Source of the DNA: a virus
Length of the DNA stretch: 20,357 nt
Strand: one strand, 5' to 3'
Virus record (IMG/VR): IMGVR_UViG_3300043409_001760
Location: 1-20,357 of that record
A model generated the notes under the pieces. It made no database searches and was not told the origin of the DNA. It saw nothing but the letters and a program-made list of their open reading frames with translations. The stretch's first letter is position 1. The number at the start of each line of letters is the position of its first letter. Positions 699 through 10,699 of the stretch are shown here, piece by piece. A program made the position numbers and the translations under genes.

Positions 699-1205
699 TT
701 AGAATGGGATGTCGTCTTCATCGCCGTTGCCAAAGTCCGGCATCGGCGGCGGCGGGTTGGATTTTGGCGCGTGGCGAGGTGCGCCGAAGTCGGCGTGGTC
801 GTCGGCCGGCGGTGACTGGCGCGGCGCAGGCTCGGCTTTCGGTGGCTGGCGCGCATCTTGACCCTCGCGAGGCCAGTAAGCCGGGCCAAAGCTGCGGATC
901 TCGATCACCAAGCCTTCTTTCTTCTCGCCATTTTGGCCCGTCCAGTTCTCCGCCTGCACGTCTCCGACGACAAGGATGGAGTCGCCTTTGCTGAGGCGCA
1001 TGAACTCATCGGCGGCGAAGTCTTGCCCCTGCCCATCACGGCCCCAAAGCTTGAGCTTAAACCATGCCGTCGCCCGGTTGCCGTCGCGGTCCTTTCGTCC
1101 GTTGAAAGCTCCAGTCGTTTCATAGATGCGCTTGCCGCTGGCAAGTTGCTTTTCGTCTGCGGATCGGCCAAGCGTGACGATGACGCGTATTTCGGTGCTG
1201 ATCAT
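699..1205 (-). CDS. ssb: Single-stranded DNA-binding protein
   Basis: SSB coats single-stranded DNA during replication and recombination and recruits partner enzymes through its C-terminal tail. The first 110 or so residues look like an SSB OB-fold, with a typical beta-strand pattern including FKLKLWGRDGQ and a strand resembling ILVVGDVQAENW. A Pro/Ala/Asp-rich flexible linker follows, and the protein ends in DDIPF, the classic acidic partner-binding tip of bacterial and phage SSBs. At 168 aa it is a normal length. The ATG at 1205 overlaps the exonuclease stop (ATGA), so SSB is translated with the Exo/Bet pair. Together they form a complete strand-annealing recombination cassette. Confidence 0.93.
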   Translation of the reverse strand: MISTEIRVIVTLGRSADEKQLASGKRIYETTGAFNGRKDRDGNRATAWFKLKLWGRDGQGQDFAADEFMRLSKGDSILVVGDVQAENWTGQNGEKKEGLVIEIRSFGPAYWPREGQDARQPPKAEPAPRQSPPADDHADFGAPRHAPKSNPPPPMPDFGNGDEDDIPF

Positions 1206-1843
1206 GCTGGCACCCCCAGAGCTTTGCGTAGGGCCGACACTCGGTCCTCGACAAGGTTGTTGAAACTGACGAGGGCCGGGATCATCTTGGCCAAGAACTC
1301 CTCATCGCGGTGGATACGAATGATGACCCCTTGTTGATCTTCGGGCAGGTCATCATGGAAAACCACCAGGTCGCACCACTTGCGGCCGCTGAGCCAGAGA
1401 CCGCCTTGAACCTGGTGCAGGTAGTCGGCGGCGTCCTTGGTCAAGGCAAACTCGCTGAATGCCGGGGCCATCGGACACTTGATCTCGAGCAAGCCGTCGC
1501 CGCCGATCAATCCGTCTGGGCTGTAGCTGTAATTGCCGCAAGCGCTGACGAACATTCCGACCTGCTCGACGGTGCTGCCGTTCTGGATTTCGTACCACTG
1601 GCGGGCGACCGGCTCAAGGTCATTGCCGCGCTTCATGGCGAAGTTCTGGAAGACCTCGCCGGCCGACTTGCCAGTCAGGCGCTCCCATGCCAGTTCCTTG
1701 AGATAGTTGAGGCCGGGGGCGGTTAATTGCCCCTTGGCGGTGCGCTCGCAGACCGTCGCAAAGCGGCTGGCGGTGATCTTGCCGAGGCGGGCAGCTTTCC
1801 ACTCGGGAGAGCCTTGGACAAGATTTTGAATCACGGAACTCAT
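1202..1843 (-). CDS. YqaJ / lambda Exo-type recombination exonuclease
   Basis: A PD-(D/E)XK nuclease of the YqaJ/lambda Exo family, which digests one strand of double-stranded DNA ends to produce single strands for the annealase. Visible motifs in order are SPEW at residues 12-15 followed by the GKITAS segment, GNDLEP at 73-78, SPDG at 108-111, LEIKC at 119-123 (probable metal-binding Asp110 and Glu120 with Lys122) and HQVQGGLWL from 143. All key catalytic positions are present. The length of 213 aa fits the family. Its ATG overlaps the Bet stop (ATGA at 1840-1843) with AGAGGTG upstream, so Bet and Exo are made together as in lambda. Confidence 0.93.
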   Translation of the reverse strand: MSSVIQNLVQGSPEWKAARLGKITASRFATVCERTAKGQLTAPGLNYLKELAWERLTGKSAGEVFQNFAMKRGNDLEPVARQWYEIQNGSTVEQVGMFVSACGNYSYSPDGLIGGDGLLEIKCPMAPAFSEFALTKDAADYLHQVQGGLWLSGRKWCDLVVFHDDLPEDQQGVIIRIHRDEEFLAKMIPALVSFNNLVEDRVSALRKALGVPA

Positions 1844-2649
1844 AAAGGCACCTCTTCAGTTTGGGATTCGGCAGGGATGGCAGCTGCGTCGGCAGCAGCG
1901 GCAGCGGTTTTATTGGCGTCGTGGTAAGGCGCGAGCGCTTTGCGTCCATCTTTGCTCAGGCCGGCAAAGAAGGCTTGATAAGCCTTCATGCCATTCATCG
2001 CGGCATCGCGGCCGCTGTCAATCAGGGCTTGGACATCTTGGCCGGGTGGTGGCGGCGGCGGCGCTTCGTCCGGCTGAAGAGCGCGGCCTTCCATCTCGTC
2101 GGCGGTGTAAGCCGCGGCAAACTCGGGAAAGGCGCGGCGGAGGGCCTGAGCCTCAGCGCACTTGGCGAGCTGCGCAAAGGGGCGGCGGGTCCACATCGCG
2201 TTTGGAGCTATGGAGTTCTTGCTGTCAGTTGCATAGTTCTCTTTCCATCGTTCGAGGGCTGGGAACTCGGCGACGGTGCCATTGGGCAGTAGGCGCTTGC
2301 AGATCACGCGGCACCACTCGGGATATTCCAGGGTTTTGCCGCCGATGTTCTCGGTCTTGGTCGGGCCGTATTCCGGCTCGCTGACCCCGGCGCACTGTTC
2401 GGTGCGGCTGGCCTGGGTGCGGTAGAGATTGACGCCAGGCATAATCACGTCACGCATGCCGTTGATGGTCTTGTCCCACATGGGGACGATGTGGACCGGC
2501 TTTTGCATCGGATCGAGGCCAGCCGCCTTGCAGTAGCTCAGGACCAGCGCGACACTTTCCGGCTTCGCTCCGGGATAGAGCGAGTTCTGGAGTGTGGTGA
2601 TTAGTTCTCTCTCAGATTGGGCGGTGACGATTTGGGTTTCTTTGGACAT
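1840..2649 (-). CDS. bet: Phage recombination protein Bet (RecT family annealase)
   Basis: A single-strand annealing protein that pairs complementary strands exposed by the adjacent exonuclease. The hallmark stretch AAGLDPMQKPVHIVPMWD near residues 42-60 is typical of the Bet/RecT family, as are the following YRTQAS segment, the WCRV strand with an aromatic and charged lysine environment, and the helical MWTRRPFAQLAKCAEAQALRRAFPE region near 150-175. The C-terminal quarter is Ala/Pro-rich and low complexity, including a PPPPPP run, and probably flexible. The length of 269 aa is normal. It lies directly upstream of Exo (4-base overlap) and downstream of the coiled-coil protein. The family is RecT-like rather than Rad52/Erf-like. 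Confidence 0.92.
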   Translation of the reverse strand: MSKETQIVTAQSERELITTLQNSLYPGAKPESVALVLSYCKAAGLDPMQKPVHIVPMWDKTINGMRDVIMPGVNLYRTQASRTEQCAGVSEPEYGPTKTENIGGKTLEYPEWCRVICKRLLPNGTVAEFPALERWKENYATDSKNSIAPNAMWTRRPFAQLAKCAEAQALRRAFPEFAAAYTADEMEGRALQPDEAPPPPPPGQDVQALIDSGRDAAMNGMKAYQAFFAGLSKDGRKALAPYHDANKTAAAAADAAAIPAESQTEEVPL

Positions 2650-2658
2650 GGGGGAACC

Positions 2659-3609
2659 TCAGTAGTTGATGGAGACATTGGGGATTGCGCCCTTGGCCAG
2701 GGCGACGACGATCTTGCGAGCGAGTTCTTCCGGCACTTCCAGAGCGCCGCAGAGATGCGCCATGATCTCGCGGTTGATGCCGCGTTTGTGCTCGACATCG
2801 CTAAAGGGAGCGGGAGACTTGGCGACTGAAGGCGCGACCGGCGCAGGGGCCGCGACACGGGCTTCAGCTTGTCTCTGAGCTATTTCGGCGGCGGCTGCGC
2901 GGCGGTTAGCAGCTTCGAGATCCGCCACTGCCTTGCGCTCAGCCTCAATCCGTCCGCGTTCTTCAGCCTCGCGGCGAATTTTCTCTTCGCGCTGCCGGGC
3001 TTCATTCTCAGCCGCTTCCTTGCGGAGTCGGGCGAGCTCTATTGCCTCGGCCTCGCGCTTCTCGGCGGCTGTATGGGCCTCGAAGAGGATTCCAGCACCA
3101 GTTGCATGAGCCATCGCAGCGGGCTCGGCGAACTCATCCCAGCCGTCGCGATTGAAGACGCCAAAAGCCTGCATCTGTTCAAGAATTTCGGCGGCTGTGG
3201 ACGCTGGCCGGACCTCGCGCAGCGCCTTGATTCGGGCTTGGAAGTCGGCTTGACGCTTCTCTTCGCGCTCTTCGAACTCGGTCAAGGGCTTGCGATACTC
3301 TTCCTTGAATGCGTCAAGTCCGTCGCGGATCATCTTGCGAAGATCATCAATTTTCTTGATTTCCTTCTTCTGGCCTTCGACTAAGCTTTTGCCGCAGTCA
3401 TCCAAAAATGTCTTGCTCTTGGCGATCTTGAGAGCGATCGACGCGCAGGATTTGCGGCCTTTATCGGTTGAGATGTCGACAGGGATCAGCAGCGCTTTAG
3501 CTCGAATCTCGGCGACCATTGCTTGCGCGGCCTCTTCGCCGGTGAAGGTCTTGAGCGCGATCTCTTGAGCTGGGATCAACTCAAGTTCGGCAGCGGCAGG
3601 GATGCTCAT
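2659..3609 (-). CDS. Coiled-coil protein upstream of Bet (316 aa)
   Basis: The protein is highly charged. Residues roughly 60-130 and 180-250 are long Lys/Glu/Arg/Ala-rich helices that should form coiled coils, and the latter consists of repeated EA/RRE/AE segments. A Pro/Ala linker follows, then a compact C-terminal domain from about residue 270 (DVEHKRGINREIMAHL onward). Similar large coiled-coil proteins often accompany RecT/Bet genes in phages, and DUF1351 is one such family. I cannot assign that family with certainty, and no function is established from the sequence. The start at 3609 has GGGGAGGTG upstream and overlaps the previous stop (ATGA), so it is firmly in the operon. Confidence 0.8.
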   Translation of the reverse strand: MSIPAAAELELIPAQEIALKTFTGEEAAQAMVAEIRAKALLIPVDISTDKGRKSCASIALKIAKSKTFLDDCGKSLVEGQKKEIKKIDDLRKMIRDGLDAFKEEYRKPLTEFEEREEKRQADFQARIKALREVRPASTAAEILEQMQAFGVFNRDGWDEFAEPAAMAHATGAGILFEAHTAAEKREAEAIELARLRKEAAENEARQREEKIRREAEERGRIEAERKAVADLEAANRRAAAAEIAQRQAEARVAAPAPVAPSVAKSPAPFSDVEHKRGINREIMAHLCGALEVPEELARKIVVALAKGAIPNVSINY

Positions 3610-3905
3610 TGCGCCACCTCCCCGCCGAGCGCCGCAATCTTGGCGTCAATCGCTTCGCGCTGCTTTTTCAGCTCCGCGATCTCGGCGGCGTTAATCTTGG
3701 CGCGGATGGCCGTCACTTCGGCGAGATGATAGATCAGGCGCTCAGTGCCGGACTCATGGCGCAGGACGCCAGCGGGTTGCAGTCCGAGAGCTTGCAGGCG
3801 CTCTTCAGTGTCGGCTGCGTTGAGCATGTCGGCGGCGGTCGAGCGGCTGACGATGATCAGCGAGCGGCTGAACTGGGATTGGTCGATAATGATTGATTCA
3901 GACAT
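3606..3905 (-). CDS. Hypothetical early protein with C-terminal helix (99 aa)
   Basis: An unrecognised protein. The frame is open upstream to 3998, but the ATG at 3903-3905 (MSESIIIDQ) is the better start: AAGGAAAACCC lies just before it and it overlaps the upstream stop by a few bases. The C-terminal third (around KINAAEIAELKKQREAIDAKIAALGGE) is a strong amphipathic helix, probably a coiled coil, which suggests oligomerisation or association with the neighbouring coiled-coil protein (inference). It couples to the 316-aa gene by an ATGA overlap. Confidence 0.65.
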   Translation of the reverse strand: MSESIIIDQSQFSRSLIIVSRSTAADMLNAADTEERLQALGLQPAGVLRHESGTERLIYHLAEVTAIRAKINAAEIAELKKQREAIDAKIAALGGEVAQ

Positions 3906-4179
3906 TGGGTTTTCCTTGCAGGTCATTGATTGCGTTTTGGATGGCTTGGCGAGCGGTGCGCATGGCCGGAATGCTCCGGCTTCTGGTCGCATCCTCAATG
4001 CGGCGGATCGCCTTGTTAATCGCCTCGGTCGGGGTATAGGTCGAAGCTACTTCGACCTTGAGCAACGCCCTTTCAAGCGGCAGGCTCATTGCGTCATTGA
4101 GGCGAGTGAGCGAGGCGCGTAAATCCGCCTCAGCGCGGGTGCCGAAACCAGTGTCAGCGAGGGTGATTGTGTCGTTCAT
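3898..4179 (-). CDS. Hypothetical helical early protein (93 aa)
   Basis: Not recognised. It is a mostly helical, mixed-charge protein without Cys pairs or membrane segments. The ATG at 4179 follows AAAGGTGG at good spacing and overlaps the stop of the HTH gene (ATGA). Its own stop overlaps the next start. The tight packing on both sides supports a real gene in the early operon. Confidence 0.65.
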   Translation of the reverse strand: MNDTITLADTGFGTRAEADLRASLTRLNDAMSLPLERALLKVEVASTYTPTEAINKAIRRIEDATRSRSIPAMRTARQAIQNAINDLQGKPNV

Positions 4180-4502
4180 GGGCCACCTTTGAGCTTGGTC
4201 AGTTTCTTCATGGCGTCATCGAATGACTTGACGGCGCTATCAAGAGCGACCTTTGCGTCCATAAGCTCCCTCATCGCCTCTGCGATATCATTGGCATCTG
4301 GAGCTGGACCCCCAGTGATAGCCGCTATGACGATGCGCCTTTGCGCCGGATGTATACCGCCGCCATCGATCCATTTGTGAAGACTGACATTACTGACCCC
4401 GAGACGCTTTCCGGCTCCTCTGTAGGTCAGCCCATTATCTTGCATCCACTTAACGAGGCCTTTTACTTGCTCATCAGTTAATGGCTTCTGTTTCATATTC
4501 AT
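4176..4502 (-). CDS. Small helix-turn-helix DNA-binding protein
   Basis: Residues about 25-46 (LTYRGAGKRLGVSNVSLHKWI) have the pattern of an XRE/transposase-type helix-turn-helix: a short helix, a glycine turn, and a recognition helix ending in the common KW. The C-terminal half is a helix with heptad character (around MDAKVALDSAVKSFDDAMKKL), suited to dimerisation. The start at 4502 has AAAGG about eight bases upstream; a second ATG lies two codons later. It is inside the early operon, not at its promoter, so it may act on another phage or host operator. It could also be a replication accessory protein. The DNA-binding role is well supported, the regulatory target is not. Confidence 0.72.
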   Translation of the reverse strand: MNMKQKPLTDEQVKGLVKWMQDNGLTYRGAGKRLGVSNVSLHKWIDGGGIHPAQRRIVIAAITGGPAPDANDIAEAMRELMDAKVALDSAVKSFDDAMKKLTKLKGGP

Positions 4503-4553
4503 ATTTCTGCCTTTGATTTGGGCGTAATCGTGTCTTTGATAGGGGGTTTTGGA

Positions 4554-4925
4554 TTAAAGGCTTCCGCTTTTTAGCAAATCATCGCCTTTTGACAGGCTCC
4601 AGCCATGGCCGTAATAGCCATTGTGGTAATTGTAGAGGGCGAATTTGATAGTCTCCGCGCCTTCTTTAATGCAGTCAAAGCAAAGCTCACCGCCCTCATC
4701 ACTTCCGTTTAAATTCTCAACGAAGGATTCAATATCAATCACATAGCCAGTAAGGCGGTCGTTGTCAGCGTCTAAAACTTCCTGACAGCGATCAACCTCT
4801 CCGATTTTGTATCCGAACTCCTCGCAACATGAAGAATTTAAATCGAATCCTACGATGACGTTGTTCTCGTCAATAATATTTAGAGACGAGCTGTAGCCGT
4901 CTTTATCTTCCTTGAAGATTCTCAT
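4554..4925 (-). CDS. AT-rich accessory protein of unknown function (123 aa)
   Basis: The frame opens at a GTG (4931), but the ATG at 4923-4925 (MRIFKED) is preferred because AGGAG lies eight bases before it, whereas only two bases separate it from the GTG. The protein is acidic, with a central FDLNSSCCEEFGY stretch, a CFDC pair near residue 93 and an aromatic YNYHNGYYGHGW segment near the end. That tail resembles small phage proteins now grouped as DUF7448, an assignment from memory with low certainty. The coding sequence is visibly richer in A and T than its neighbours, and it lies between genes without the usual overlaps. This suggests a recently acquired moron-like gene. Confidence 0.7.
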   Translation of the reverse strand: MRIFKEDKDGYSSSLNIIDENNVIVGFDLNSSCCEEFGYKIGEVDRCQEVLDADNDRLTGYVIDIESFVENLNGSDEGGELCFDCIKEGAETIKFALYNYHNGYYGHGWSLSKGDDLLKSGSL

Positions 4926-4960
4926 TTTCACGACTCCTCTATTTCGTAGAGATGGTTGAA

Positions 4961-5185
4961 TTAAAGGGTTTTCATGAAATCCTTGGCAGCGGGGGACAGC
5001 TCTCCGCCAAGGCCTTTCATCACTTTCTTATGGAGATCATTGAGCGCATCTTCAATGCCTCCGGGGATCTCGCCAGTCACCCGCTCATATTTCGCGGCGG
5101 CGGCGTTCAGTTCGCGGTAGAGGTCTTGAAGAGCGTCTTGCTCGGTATCCACATCGTCGGACCGGGCGTTCGGGTTATTGCTCAT
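4961..5185 (-). CDS. Hypothetical small helical protein (74 aa)
   Basis: Not recognised. It has an acidic N-terminus followed by two predicted helices around residues 18-40 and 43-60. The ATG at 5183-5185 overlaps the TGA of the preceding gene in the ATGA pattern, while the ribosome binding site is weak, so translation is probably coupled. No motif or membrane segment is visible. Confidence 0.6.
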   Translation of the reverse strand: MSNNPNARSDDVDTEQDALQDLYRELNAAAAKYERVTGEIPGGIEDALNDLHKKVMKGLGGELSPAAKDFMKTL

Positions 5186-5409
5186 CTACACTCACTCGCA
5201 ATGAATTCGTTCATTCTTTTCTCGACATGCGCCGAGCTGAGGTTTTGCGCGAGGTCGACCGATGCGGTGCAGAGCAGGCACTTCGCCGACGCCGCCGCTT
5301 CCATGAGTTGACCTTTTTCCATGTGGTCTTGGACAACGGCGACGGCGGCGAGGAGGCGCTTTAAGTCGCTTTCGGCTTCAAGCTCGTAAGTGTATTTATT
5401 GCGGCTCAT
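5182..5409 (-). CDS. Hypothetical small helical protein (75 aa)
   Basis: Not recognised. It is predicted to be almost entirely helical, with a CLLC pair near the middle (AKCLLCTASVD). It overlaps the stop of the upstream gene (ATGA at 5406-5409), which carries a GGTGGAAGA purine stretch usable as a ribosome binding site. It belongs to the block of small early genes whose products commonly modify host functions in phages, but nothing in this sequence shows that directly. Confidence 0.6.
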   Translation of the reverse strand: MSRNKYTYELEAESDLKRLLAAVAVVQDHMEKGQLMEAAASAKCLLCTASVDLAQNLSSAHVEKRMNEFIASECR

Positions 5410-5828
5410 TCTTCCACCTCCAGCGAATATGGCTCAGAAGTCGGGGTGTCGGCGATTTTATGCCGCCGTGCTAACGCCTCTGGCGCGGTGTTTATATTAT
5501 GTCCGTAGACATAGGGACCGTCGAACGCTGTGATTAGATATCGTTCTCCTCCTTGAGATACAATCCACTTCCCCGCGCACTCCTGCGGCGTCATGAGGCG
5601 GGTTTTCTTGAGGAGGATGGCATTCATACCCCTGCCGTTTTTAGAAATTCCCATGATGCAATATTCTGCATTTTTGTGCCCGATGACAACTGACGCTCGT
5701 TCACTGTCGTTCGGCAGTCCAGAGACAAACATTTTCGTCGGCGTGCAGAGCGTGACGCCTTCGCCTTCAAGAAATGATGCGGTGGGATTGGCCTTCAGAA
5801 TCTCGGCCTTGAATTCTTCTAGTGTCAT
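5406..5828 (-). CDS. Hypothetical early protein (140 aa)
   Basis: The frame is open upstream to 5882, but the extra N-terminus overlaps the membrane-protein gene. The ATG at 5826-5828 (MTLEEFKAEILKAN) forms a TAATG junction with that gene's stop and gives a sensible helical N-terminus, so it is preferred. The rest has alternating short beta-like strands (for example ASVVIGHKNAEYCIMGIS and KWIVSQGGERYLITAF) and could be a compact alpha/beta domain. I do not recognise the family. Base composition is somewhat lower in GC than the recombination genes. Confidence 0.62.
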   Translation of the reverse strand: MTLEEFKAEILKANPTASFLEGEGVTLCTPTKMFVSGLPNDSERASVVIGHKNAEYCIMGISKNGRGMNAILLKKTRLMTPQECAGKWIVSQGGERYLITAFDGPYVYGHNINTAPEALARRHKIADTPTSEPYSLEVEE

Positions 5829-6049
5829 TATGGAATCACTCCTGTCACAAGGGTGGTGTTGATCGTGTCGCACAGGCCCCATATGCCGCCAGCGGCGATC
5901 AGCAGGACCGCGCCAGTAATGGCGGCGAGGCGGGCAGCATCGCGCAGCTCGGCGCGGATCTTTCCGGCGAGCGGATTGACCGGGTTGACTTGCGGGGTGA
6001 TGCTGCTAAGTTCGCAGCTGTCGGGATTGTCATTGGTCTCGTCAAGCAT
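5828..6049 (-). CDS. Small single-pass membrane protein (73 aa)
   Basis: Residues about 40-60 (ARLAAITGAVLLIAAGGIWGL) form one hydrophobic transmembrane helix, preceded by a polar 35-residue N-terminal region and followed by a short tail. The ATG at 6049 has AAGGAACGAG upstream at workable spacing. It is the second gene of the early operon, after the ribbon-helix-helix-like gene. Small early membrane proteins of phages can affect superinfection or host envelope functions, but the sequence gives no direct evidence of role. Confidence 0.65.
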   Translation of the reverse strand: MLDETNDNPDSCELSSITPQVNPVNPLAGKIRAELRDAARLAAITGAVLLIAAGGIWGLCDTINTTLVTGVIP

Positions 6050-6107: not shown

Positions 6108-6248
6108 TCAGTTTTTGGGTTTCTTCTTTTTTAGAACCAGTTGCCGTATTGCCTCGGGATGCGTTAGGCCGCGTTCGGCTGCGTAAGCCTTAATCACTTC
6201 ATGCGCATCAAGCGGAACAGCCATGTGCTTCATCTCGCTTTTCTTCAT
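6108..6248 (-). CDS. Ribbon-helix-helix-like small protein, first gene of the early operon (46 aa)
   Basis: This short gene begins within ATGATGATG at 6246-6254 and ends with TGA at 6108-6110. The third ATG (6248) is preferred because AAGGGA then sits six bases upstream; starting at 6254 would give 48 aa. The sequence fits a minimal Arc/CopG-type ribbon-helix-helix fold: a short strand KHMAVPL, then a helix around DAHEVIKAYAAERG, a turn, and a second helix around THPEAIRQLVLKK, with a basic tail KKKKPKN. It is the first gene behind the early promoter, whose flank carries tandem repeats, so autoregulation is plausible (inference). Confidence 0.65.
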   Translation of the reverse strand: MKKSEMKHMAVPLDAHEVIKAYAAERGLTHPEAIRQLVLKKKKPKN

Positions 6249-6254
6249 CATCAT

Positions 6255-6381
6255 TCCCTTGAGTTTCGGCCCTATCCTGGGGCCTTCATCAGCGACCCCG
6301 AAGAAGGGGCCGGACTCACTGCTCTGTCAAAAATCACTTTAGGGACTGCTGCCCTGCTGGATCACCAGCTGCGTTTTGCAT
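6255..6381 (-). promoter_or_regulatory. Structured 5' leader of the early operon
   Basis: About 127 bases separate the predicted transcription start (near 6381) from the first gene. The leader can form three small hairpins: GCTGG/CCAGC at 6356-6369, CCCC/GGGG at 6296-6309, and GGCCC/GGGCC at 6268-6284, the last just before the AAGGGA ribosome binding site. A TTGACA-like box on the minus strand (6325-6330) has no matching -10, so it is not counted as a promoter. The leader is long for a phage early gene and may regulate translation or termination, but no known riboswitch class is recognised. Confidence 0.35.
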
Positions 6382-6387
6382 GATGCC

Positions 6388-6416
6388 ATAATAGACGCAC
6401 ATCACAGCCGCGTCAA
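6388..6416 (-). promoter_or_regulatory. Early leftward sigma70-type promoter
   Basis: On the minus strand a -35 box TTGACG (6411-6416) is separated by exactly 17 bases from a -10 box TATTAT (6388-6393). It points at the early operon, whose first start codon lies about 130 bases downstream. Both hexamers match consensus at five of six positions. The tandem 11-bp repeats lie immediately upstream of the -35 box, where an UP element or an operator would be placed. This is the best promoter match noted in the window. Confidence 0.72.
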
Positions 6417-6422
6417 GTGGCC

Positions 6423-6455
6423 TTTGAGATTTCTTTGAGATTTTTATGAGATTCA
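6423..6455. repeat. Three tandem 11-bp repeats beside the early promoter
   Basis: Three consecutive units, TTTGAGATTTC (6423-6433), TTTGAGATTTT (6434-6444) and TATGAGATTCA (6445-6455), share the core TGAGATT with an exact 11-bp period, close to one helical turn. They start six bases beyond the -35 box of the early promoter. Phased direct repeats are typical operators for ribbon-helix-helix repressors or initiator iterons, and A/T-rich phased tracts can also act as an UP element. Which of these applies cannot be seen from sequence alone. Confidence 0.6.
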
Positions 6456-6521
6456 TGAACGGCGCTTGCGGCGGGATTTCGTGGGGCTATCTTCTCTTGA
6501 GGCCGAGAAGGCAACACCCGA

Positions 6522-6560
6522 AGACTTTGCGGAAGGCTCAATTTCCGCAAGGTCTTTTTT
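6522..6560 (+). terminator. Rho-independent terminator, rightward
   Basis: A 13-bp stem (AGACTTTGCGGAA against TTCCGCAAGGTCT, one T-G wobble) with an 8-nt loop is followed directly by a run of six T on the plus strand. On the minus strand no T-run follows the stem, so it is directional. It must end a rightward transcript that starts somewhere in 6260-6500, or insulate the region against read-through. Confidence 0.72.
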
Positions 6561-6740
6561 CTTGGTTACTTGACACCCCGCCAACACGCTGCAATTTCGC
6601 AGAGGTCAGAACCCAAGGGCGCAGCTGGTACGGTTCCAACGGAACGCGTAGGCTTGTCGGGTCACCGCCGACCTGATCACATAGCGTCCCCTGGTGGGCC
6701 CGGCAACGGTGCGCGGATTCGATTCCTGCGGGTGCTTCCA
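6561..6740 (+). other. Gene-free stretch ending in a tRNA 3'-end look-alike (possible att site or decayed tRNA)
   Basis: No credible ORF is visible. Rightward, the stretch ends with a T-arm-like hairpin (stem 6713-6717 with 6725-6729, loop TTCGATT), a 7-nt acceptor-like strand GGGTGCT (6730-6736), a T and CCA (6738-6740). AGCGTCC at 6683-6689 can pair with the acceptor-like strand over seven positions with two G-T wobbles, but only 58 nt separate the ends, too short for a complete tRNA. The T-stem also has an A-C mismatch at the normally conserved closing pair. Other small hairpins are GTTCC/GGAAC and GTCGG/CCGAC. Phage attP sites often match a tRNA 3' end, but no integrase is visible. A TTGACA at 6570-6575 lacks a -10. 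Confidence 0.25.
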
Positions 6741-6750
6741 TCTACCCCAC

Positions 6751-6786
6751 AAAAAAGCCCCCAGTCCGAGATGGACCGGGGGCTTT
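6751..6786 (-). terminator. Rho-independent terminator of the leftward late operon
   Basis: A 13-bp stem (AAGCCCCC-A-GTCC against GGAC-C-GGGGGCTT, one A-C mismatch) with the 5-nt loop GAGAT lies 14 bases beyond the stop of the last late gene. On the minus strand it is followed by a run of six T. Rightward it has only TTT, so it may act weakly in both directions. Confidence 0.85.
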
Positions 6787-6799
6787 GAAGTGGCGCTGG

Positions 6800-8152: not shown

Positions 8153-10699
8153 TTAGCTGAATGCCGCAGACATTGCGGTCACATGGTTTTTGATTTCGTC
8201 TTTATCTTCGATGGCAACAGAAACGCGGCCGACGACGGTTGCCGCGTTGACGATGGTATAGGGGGTCTCACCGTAGGAAACGAAGTTCCCATTGGCGTCG
8301 ACCGGGGCGAAAGGGATTGTGTAATTGATGAGCTGAACCCAGGCGCCAAAGGGGCATTTTGTGCCGGACGGATAACTCGGCAAAGGCTTGACGCGAAAGG
8401 TGTCGTCGTAGATGATCACACGGCGCTCGACAATCTCAAGCAAGAGCGGATCGCCAGTGACAAGAGCACCTTCGGCGCTGTCGAGGGTCAGACGCATGTA
8501 CTCGACAAAGACAATCGCCCTTTCGATGTCGCCAGCAGGCAGCGCAGGAACAAGGCCAGTCATCACGCCCGCCGAGTCAGCCGGGAGCAGTGCCGCCAAA
8601 GGCAGGTAGTTGGTTAGCACGTCGGTGTAGACCGCGCCAGAAATGCCAGTGAAAGAGCTGTTGAGGACCAGCGAAGTGACGACGTTCCCGCCTGCTGTGA
8701 CAGCGCCAAGCTGCGGGGTGTAGTTGAGGGCGTCGTAAAGCCAACGCCATTGCGAGCCAGGGGGCAATCTAACGACGAAGGACGCCGCAGCTCCAGCACC
8801 GCCAAGCGACGATGACAAGACGGCGTGTTGCCGGAGATTGCCAAGCGCCCAGATTTGCCACGCTGCGCCATCCCAGTAGCCGTGCTCCTCTCGGACTCCG
8901 TTGCTGTCAGCGTCGACCGCGTAATACTTGCCAATGTCCGCGCCGCCGCCAAGTCCTGGGTTTGCCGATTGCCCTGCTGCGTGCGAGGTGTAAACGCCAA
9001 GCAGGCCGTTGACCTTGAACTTGGTGGCGTCGATCAGCGCAAAAGTGCCGCCAGCCGGGGAGACCGTGAAAGTGGTGTCAATCAGGTTGTCGATGGTGAC
9101 GGTATTGCCAGTGCCTTGGTTGACAGTCAGAGTCGCGCCGCCTGTCACGATGGTGACGGCTCCGGTGCCATCGGCGACCGTCACGTCGGCGGTGTTCCCG
9201 CTAAAGGTCCAAGCGCTCACATCATAGGAGCCGGGGGCGGTGATGAGCAGGCCTTGGGCCGAGTTTTTGACCGTGGTGACAACCGGAGTAGTTCCAGCGA
9301 CTATCACCGAAGCAAGGCCGTCGAAGACTGCATTTTCCGGGGTGTCTGTGATCGTGGCAGAGCCTGTTCCGGAGTAGCGCAAAACAGTCGGAGAGGTCAG
9401 CGTGATTGATCCGGAAGTCTTGATTTCTTTGAGCTTGGCATCGGGAGCAAGAACAAACGTCGAAGAGATATTCAGCGCACCTAGGTCCCAAATGTCTCCA
9501 GAAGTGGAGCCGAATAAAACGCTATCAGTCAAGCGCCAGTACGCCTTGCGTGAAGCGTAGAGCTGGACAAGGGTCAAAGCTCCCGTCATGGTCAGGGTTG
9601 AGGCGCTGTGAGTCGCAGCAAGCGCACCGGCTGCGGTGTAGGAGATGCCAGCCAGATAATCGTCTGTGATCAGATAGAGATTGACATAGCTACCAGTCGC
9701 CGAGTCGCCTGCCTTGGCGGTTAAGTCGAAGGCAATATTTCCAAGCGGGTCATGCCCGTATGATCGAATTTCCCGGAAGTTCGCAACTGTCGCAATCGTG
9801 TAGTCACGGACGCTTGATGGCTCAGAAATGCCAGTGGCGCGAGATGTCCCGGCGTCGATGATGTATTGCACCATTTGATAGTGCTTACCGCCAGAGATTC
9901 GACCGTTTGAGTCTGAGGTGTAGCGAGAAATTTCAGCTTGAACACCTGCGGTCGTCTGGTCACTGCGGTAGATAATCACGGCATCTTGAACAGGCGAAGC
10001 GCCAGATAAAAGCTGCTCCGAGATAGACCAATAACGGAAGCATTTCCGATCGAGCACCACACCGGATTGAACAGCCAGGGAAACTGTTGTAAATGCCATG
10101 GTGCAGTCGCGGAATCGGAAGCGATTGGCTGCGCTTCCTGATCCAAGCCAAGCGATGAAGCCGGAGGGGGTTGAGCCAAGGGTGATATCCGTCAGGCTCA
10201 TGTCTCCGTTTGACCAGTTAAGGATATTCAGAGTGCATCCGGAATACGAGGCCTTCCAAGTTGTCGGAGTGCCGCTTAATTCATGGACGTGGATATTGAC
10301 GAATTCCGCGTCTTGAATGTTTGCACCTGCCAAGGTGTAGATGAATTTTGTCCCAGACTGCGAGCCGTCACCAATGATTTTTGATCTGGTTAATTCGGTA
10401 AAATAGTTGTTCACTCGGGTGGCACCGTTGCCGCTGATGCGAGCCACGGAGTCAACCAAGTTCAGTTTTCCAGACCCCGAGACACTGAGCCTGTTGCCTG
10501 CGCCATTCAATGCCAGTAGGCACTTGGTGAAGATGAAGATTGAGGCGGCATTATTAGGGACAGTGAAAGTGCCGATGACTAGAAGATTTTCATCAGTAGC
10601 GCTTCCCGGTGTGCCTGCTGTTGGCGTTTGGGCGGCAACCTTTTGAATGCTGGGCCAGTTGGTCGCGTCAACTGTCGTCGTGATATTGGTGACGCTCAT
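8153..10699 (-). CDS. Large tail fibre / tail spike-like protein (848 aa)
   Basis: This is the largest protein of the window. Residues 1-200 and 400-600 are long runs of short Ser/Thr/Val/Gly-rich strands (for example repeated TxTxxG and TVTI patterns), compatible with a right-handed beta-helix or stacked-beta fibre shaft. The C-terminal 250 residues are more globular, with aromatic-rich segments (GYWDGAAWQIWALG, QWRWLYDALNY) and a final strand-rich part. No catalytic signature of a depolymerase can be named. Translation is coupled to the upstream gene (TGATG at 10697-10701). Together with the 350-aa gene it forms the receptor-recognition module; host adsorption is inferred from position and composition. 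Confidence 0.75.
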   Translation of the reverse strand: MSVTNITTTVDATNWPSIQKVAAQTPTAGTPGSATDENLLVIGTFTVPNNAASIFIFTKCLLALNGAGNRLSVSGSGKLNLVDSVARISGNGATRVNNYFTELTRSKIIGDGSQSGTKFIYTLAGANIQDAEFVNIHVHELSGTPTTWKASYSGCTLNILNWSNGDMSLTDITLGSTPSGFIAWLGSGSAANRFRFRDCTMAFTTVSLAVQSGVVLDRKCFRYWSISEQLLSGASPVQDAVIIYRSDQTTAGVQAEISRYTSDSNGRISGGKHYQMVQYIIDAGTSRATGISEPSSVRDYTIATVANFREIRSYGHDPLGNIAFDLTAKAGDSATGSYVNLYLITDDYLAGISYTAAGALAATHSASTLTMTGALTLVQLYASRKAYWRLTDSVLFGSTSGDIWDLGALNISSTFVLAPDAKLKEIKTSGSITLTSPTVLRYSGTGSATITDTPENAVFDGLASVIVAGTTPVVTTVKNSAQGLLITAPGSYDVSAWTFSGNTADVTVADGTGAVTIVTGGATLTVNQGTGNTVTIDNLIDTTFTVSPAGGTFALIDATKFKVNGLLGVYTSHAAGQSANPGLGGGADIGKYYAVDADSNGVREEHGYWDGAAWQIWALGNLRQHAVLSSSLGGAGAAASFVVRLPPGSQWRWLYDALNYTPQLGAVTAGGNVVTSLVLNSSFTGISGAVYTDVLTNYLPLAALLPADSAGVMTGLVPALPAGDIERAIVFVEYMRLTLDSAEGALVTGDPLLLEIVERRVIIYDDTFRVKPLPSYPSGTKCPFGAWVQLINYTIPFAPVDANGNFVSYGETPYTIVNAATVVGRVSVAIEDKDEIKNHVTAMSAAFS

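Follow-up and report, generated by a model that had tools for sequence, protein, structure and literature searches.

Gene run, promoter and phased repeats

The DNA analysed here (the window) is a 20,357-base IMG/VR record, with Pfam matches to a small terminase subunit, a GP7 capsid protein and a head-tail connector. Its large terminase subunit is close (41-46% identical) to its counterparts in Pseudomonas phages UFJF_PfDIW6 and AF and in Salmonella phage SPN1S. On its minus strand, a run of genes headed by a small ORF reaches RecT (PF03837), a YqaJ exonuclease (PF09588) and SSB (PF00436). It had been proposed that this small ORF heads a recombination-gene run, which was confirmed by the ORF list and the Pfam matches, and the gene content suggests that the operon is an early one. 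The features of the locus are listed in Table 1.

Table 1. Features of the leader region and of the gene run behind it
Feature	Position in window	Strand	Basis or remark
AATCTCA x3 (TGAGATT on + strand), 11-bp period	6425..6453	-	possible operator or A-rich UP-like element
sigma-70-like promoter TTGACG-17-TATTAT	6388..6416	-	scan; standard spacing gives +1 at ~6381
5' leader piece, ~69 nt, released by predicted self-cleavage	6313..6381	-	+1 inferred from promoter geometry
type III hammerhead ribozyme, whole motif	6259..6319	-	Rfam RF00008, 26.2 bits; model R1, 46.9 bits
stem III 5' strand UGAGU, pairs with 6264-6260	6314..6318	-	Rfam alignment, fold
predicted cleavage site, after C17 (6313), before 6312	6312..6313	-	homology to hammerhead core
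stem-loop I, CGGCCCC / UUCUUC / GGGGUCG, 7 bp	6293..6312	-	descriptor scan
core CUGAUGA (C3-A9)	6286..6292	-	Rfam alignment
inserted A between A9 and G10.1	6285	-	Rfam alignment; same insertion in CChMVd
stem-loop II, GGCCC / CAGGAUA / GGGCC, 5 bp	6268..6284	-	descriptor scan
GAAA core (G12-A15.1) and stem III 3' strand ACUCA	6260..6267	-	Rfam alignment
SD-like AAGGGA, touches stem III end	6255..6260	-	coordinates
first ORF, 48 aa (46 aa from third ATG), possible RHH protein	6108..6254	-	ORF list; predicted structure
rest of same-strand run: small unknown ORFs, phrog_10011, HTH-like ORF, phrog_1376, RecT, YqaJ exonuclease, SSB	699..6049	-	Pfam, PHROG

Loci of RecT relatives (28 loci) and of terminase relatives (31 loci) had only RecT/YqaJ or structural genes in common with the window. 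The small genes between 3606 and 6254 had no homologue in the relatives' loci except for one HTH-like match (L289), and the homologue search with the 158-aa ORF at 5406-5882 found nothing. Within the recombination gene run, the small protein encoded at 4554-4931 (-) matched phrog_10011 and, weakly, DUF7448.

The first ORF, 6254-6108 (-), has three in-frame ATGs. The first gives a protein of 48 aa, and the third, which is better spaced to the SD-like AAGGGA at 6260-6255 (-), gives the tiny 46-aa product that had been predicted. The ribbon-helix-helix (RHH) fold suggested for it was weakly supported: AlphaFold2 run without an alignment gave two helices (15-28 and 32-41; mean pLDDT 73), and RHH proteins (Rv0298, NikA, AvtR, Arc and CopG) took up a good part of the top of the Foldseek list, but no strand was modelled and Foldseek had no match at E<1. 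Pfam returned DUF6290 alone (E 0.11), the profile and sequence searches gave no significant match, the sole protein relative was a 22-aa match on one contig (L003), and no relatives were detected by tblastn in 50,697 phage records. The product is therefore like the Arc/CopG RHH repressors in length and helix pattern, whereas it has no significant sequence or structure match to them and its DNA binding is putative. Based on the structure model, the protein may well be RHH-like.

Upstream of this ORF, the minus strand carries TTGACG (6416-6411), a 17-bp spacer and TATTAT (6393-6388). This was the sole site with 10/12 consensus matches among the 12 sites of a whole-window scan, and the promoter originally proposed at this position is thus the best one in the window. 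The three TGAGATT units described directly upstream of it were also found, starting at 6425, 6436 and 6447 (+ strand) with a step of exactly 11 bp; the nearest unit ends 8 bp upstream of the -35. A set of three exact 7-mers with a 10-12-bp period occurred in 0/20,000 dinucleotide shuffles of 6381-6580 and in 0/300 shuffles of the whole window, in a test whose pattern was chosen after being seen. As the motif itself is not rare (4 copies of TGAGATT in the window vs 2.66 expected), it is the phasing that is the unusual part of these repeats.

Other structures were noted beyond the repeats. A terminator-like hairpin (16 pairs and a T-run) lies at 6520-6557 (+), with no evident gene there, and a strong hairpin rich in G+C, with T6 after it on the minus strand, lies at 6747-6788 and looks like the terminator of the minus-strand gene upstream (7063-6800). 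The stretch in between, 6620-6745 (+), looks like a broken tRNA, with a T-loop-like GGATTCGATTCC and a TTCCA end; ARAGORN found no tRNA in it, and it is possibly an attachment-site remnant.

Hammerhead motif of the leader

The original prediction envisaged a self-contained switch made of the promoter, the repeats and the first protein. This did not hold, because a hammerhead ribozyme motif lies between the promoter and the gene in the same transcript. As a second candidate for control or processing, the motif has the better support. All invariant core positions are intact (C3, U4, G5, A6, G8, A9, G12, A13, A14, A15.1 and U16.1, and H17), with CUGAUGA at 6292-6286, GAAA at 6267-6264, U6314 and C6313. 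Three stems can form around the core (I, 7 bp; II, 5 bp; III, 5 bp), the stem II closing pair G10.1-C11.1 is present as G6284-C6268, and one A (6285) is inserted after A9. Stem III is open and the loops are on stems I and II, which is the type III layout. Judged by its sequence, the leader segment 6319-6259 is a type III hammerhead ribozyme, for which self-cleavage is predicted.

A search with 4,227 Rfam families at E<=1 gave one match in the whole window, Hammerhead_3 (RF00008) on the minus strand at 6320-6258, with 26.2 bits (E 0.09 for the whole window; E 0.0035 with 801 bases searched). The match spans the whole model and has the same core and the same circular permutation with stem III open, but it carries one inserted A and scores below the gathering threshold of 48.5 bits. 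Gathering is a database cut-off and not a defining hammerhead feature. At gathering, Rfam gave no type III call in 13 loci with clear members of the class described below, and such elements may therefore be missing from standard annotation. A strict hammerhead descriptor (stems of >=5/4/4 bp) matched once in the window and 0 times in 1,500 dinucleotide shuffles of the window.

A covariance model (R1) was built from 38 other hammerheads, picked by length, inserted U or A and <80% identity, with the window excluded. Covariation in the 38-row alignment was strong; as the rows had been chosen by a pairing filter this is partly circular, and the held-out score of the window was relied on instead. 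R1 detected the hammerhead at 46.9 bits (E 2.5e-11), its sole match in the window up to E 10. In the RecT-relative loci (L003-L031; 29 loci, 343,862 bases) there was no match at E<=1, in the 31 terminase-relative loci (404,247 bases) there were three weak matches, and the best score in the 748 kb of relatives' loci was 23.5 bits, with mispaired stems (L319); 26 whole related virus records gave no match at E<=0.001. From these scores, the RNA in the window is a real class member that is not common to the nearest relatives examined. The RecT and terminase relatives were dropped as a route to the same locus, with few shared genes and no clear R1 match.

Type III hammerheads and the inserted base in phage contigs

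When virus contigs were initially scanned for the GAGTC form, 9 matches turned up, spread over 8 contigs. The stems and an inserted U were present in two of these, which lie in L032 at a distance of about 1 kb from each other; the other 7 lacked the stems. The two (L032:7377-7434 and 8424-8481) are type III hammerheads with differing stems and the same layout, each directly 5' of a different small ORF. In wider scans, strict type III hammerheads were present in at least 53/118 and at least 52/108 loci from virus contigs and in 7/23 loci from genome contigs. Among the matches listed, 134 placements collapsed into 116 distinct hammerheads when duplicates were merged; there are thus at least 116 (the window and L032 included), mostly from virus contigs. 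Two or three distinct strict copies were found in 14 loci among the matches listed. One virus contig also carries, 1.5 kb from its type III hammerhead, a type II hammerhead at the Rfam gathering score (L113:7867-7937). Three loci (L225, L228 and L243) have hammerhead-like matches in which stem II opens with a U-U mismatch (CUGAUGAUUGC...GCAUGAAA) and stem III is GAU...AUC.

The members of this class lie upstream of ORF starts. Among the matches listed, 106 of the 112 testable members had an ORF start (>=40 codons) within 80 nt downstream, four of the 116 having been left out for too little downstream sequence, compared with 24/111 on the reverse strand and 44.9/112 at random places for the same set; 74 of these 106 starts had an SD-like word. 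The median distance to the ORF start was 20 nt, and the downstream proteins had no common family (top PHROG 5/106, top Pfam family 4/106), both among the matches listed, which points to a general role in mRNA 5'-end formation and not to one gene type.

As 70/116 members among the matches listed are closely behind a same-strand ORF, most of them appear to lie between genes of one operon. The hammerhead in the window is unlike this majority, being preceded by a promoter and not by a close same-strand ORF. Promoters with >=10/12 matches were found <=200 nt upstream of 10/115 members listed, compared with 2.3% of controls, and the promoter-preceded members are a minority among the matches listed.

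An inserted base after A9 recurs in the class. The 116 distinct hammerheads listed had U in 51, A in 5 (window included), G in 4, C in 1 and none in 55, where inserted and plain counts are not comparable because each pattern scan had fixed the presence or absence of the insert. When any base was allowed at the position, the matches listed had U in 41, A in 4, G in 4 (a G here may be paired) and C in 0, and the inserted-A form scanned alone gave 16 stretches in all. Among the 173 distinct model hits listed for the scanned loci, there were 80 with U, 10 with A, 4 with G, 1 with C, 60 with none and 18 with another arrangement, so that 90/173 have an inserted U or A. Of the 30 distinct hammerheads in the same loci that neither pattern had selected, 19 had no insert, U was inserted in 9 and C in 1, and the remaining one had an odd core; with 19/30 lacking it, the insert is common but not the rule.

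The same extra A, between A9 and G10.1, is found in the plus-strand hammerhead of CChMVd, although that one is a viroid replication ribozyme and the one in the window is in an mRNA leader. According to the available excerpts of PMC3705267, the inserted A moderately lowers the trans-cleaving rate of the CChMVd ribozyme, a change of this A10 to U makes cleavage faster, and C or G is harmful. The U/A-rich and C-poor counts among the matches listed fit these effects. In the available text of PMC3088659, the core variants named do not include an insertion after A9, and mispairs next to the core were rejected by the filter used. In the open-licence PMC literature we found no report that the insertion after A9 recurs among phage hammerheads. 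Odd as it is in the viroid ribozyme, a U or A inserted at this point seems to be a natural form that is common among phages. Since type I, II and III hammerheads of phages are already published (excerpts of PMC7761336 and PMC3088659), the RNA in the window is best described as a hammerhead whose insertion has a viroid precedent.

Role of the leader and alternative explanations

We consider it likely that the leader folds as a hammerhead and cuts itself after C6313, thereby setting where the early/recombination mRNA begins, to the benefit of either its stability or access to the start site. Transcription from the promoter at 6416-6388, with +1 at ~6381, would produce a leader RNA whose type III hammerhead (6319-6259) immediately precedes the small first gene's SD and start codon. 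Stem I would be made first, then stem II, and lastly stem III, closing against the SD. Self-cleavage would remove ~69 nt, one strand of stem III among them; the operon mRNA left behind would have a 5'-OH end and two 5' hairpins (stems I and II), with 58 nt to the first ATG. Without its partner strand, stem III could no longer clamp the start site and SD. A 5'-OH end with hairpins should resist 5'-end-dependent decay in bacteria.

Leader processing is our first choice because of the precedent of HHphage in haloviruses HF1 and HF2, which lies 13 nt upstream of the first gene and where the early polycistronic transcript has its mapped 5' end <=3 nt from the ribozyme cleavage site (Perreault et al. 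2011, excerpts of PMC3088659). This is the closest published case, and the hammerhead in the window is likewise a few nt 5' of the first gene of an operon. As far as the excerpts of that paper go, the mapped end of HHphage fits cleavage in vivo; the core insertions of HHphage are near C3 and stem I, whereas that of the window is after A9; and HHphage belongs to a high-salt archaeal host with a helicase as first gene, whereas a tiny RHH-like ORF is first in the window. The same excerpts describe prophage hammerheads (Agrobacterium ardA, Azorhizobium and Clostridium scindens) beside varied phage genes, as in the window; they occur several per cluster, compared with one in the window, and some clustered ones have been shown to cleave (PMC3088659).

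It is quite improbable that the leader, as a decayed hammerhead or simply a stable plain hairpin, would protect the mRNA end or modulate translation through its alternative fold and without cleavage. The energies speak for it: an alternative long hairpin is favoured over the hammerhead by ~9 kcal/mol (-33.4 vs -24.6) under nearest-neighbour rules, in which tertiary contacts are not counted, it is more stable than 200/200 shuffles, and it dominates the prefix folds from ~114 nt on. A hammerhead-like minimum-energy fold was obtained for 65/116 of the class members listed, and the window is not among these. The extra A in the core could also be a sign of decay, but an inserted U or A is frequent in the class, as seen in the model hits listed above. 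A plain hairpin would have no need of the invariant core positions, all of which are kept; in addition, stem I appears by itself in the 90-nt prefix fold, and its synthesis is over before stem II is made. The alternative fold may reflect weak activity or serve as a genuine off-state, or it may arise artificially from the high G+C content of the stems. A 4-bp complement between loop I and loop II is possible in the window; in the class, loop I-loop II complementarity was not above that of shuffled partners (32 vs a mean of 25.1 and a maximum of 39, among the matches listed).

The phased repeats allow two further explanations. In one, the small protein would act as an Arc/CopG-type repressor, binding to the three 11-bp repeats to switch off its own promoter, with the leader RNA as a mere passenger. 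The repeats are in helical phase beside the -35, and such a protein would suit both the predicted helices and the high places of RHH entries in the Foldseek list. We nevertheless regard this as unlikely, as the first-ORF protein has no significant sequence or fold match, no relatives were found that would allow repeats and gene to be compared, repeats upstream of the -35 fit an activator or an UP element equally well, and the hammerhead is left unexplained. In the other, which we rate slightly higher though still as doubtful, the AATCTCA units would act as A-rich bends or UP-like contacts that strengthen the promoter with no dedicated regulator. This would suit A-rich units with an 11-bp period directly 5' of a near-consensus promoter, but the units have a common 7-bp word, which is more than A-tracts would need. 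A repressor and a ribozyme are not mutually exclusive, and it is possible that the repeats and the RHH-like protein form a separate, second transcriptional layer beside the ribozyme.

The role of hammerheads in phages is an open question according to the available part of a review (PMC6155905), and we found no description of type III hammerheads as a general class of gene leaders in the open-licence PMC literature. Tentatively, and with some reservation, we suggest that in tailed phages of many kinds there is a large class of type III hammerheads, for the most part unannotated and in many cases with a U or A insert after A9, that act as makers of mRNA 5' ends for single genes and for operons, where a cut abutting the SD would set both stability and access to the start; in the window, the competing fold could make the cut conditional. 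Being alone behind one promoter and before one operon, the hammerhead in the window is a clean test object for this. It was also observed that the predicted +1 is the A of an ATG opening a 15-codon ORF (6381-6334, -). This ORF could encode a leaderless peptide, and ribozyme cleavage would then split it from the operon mRNA.
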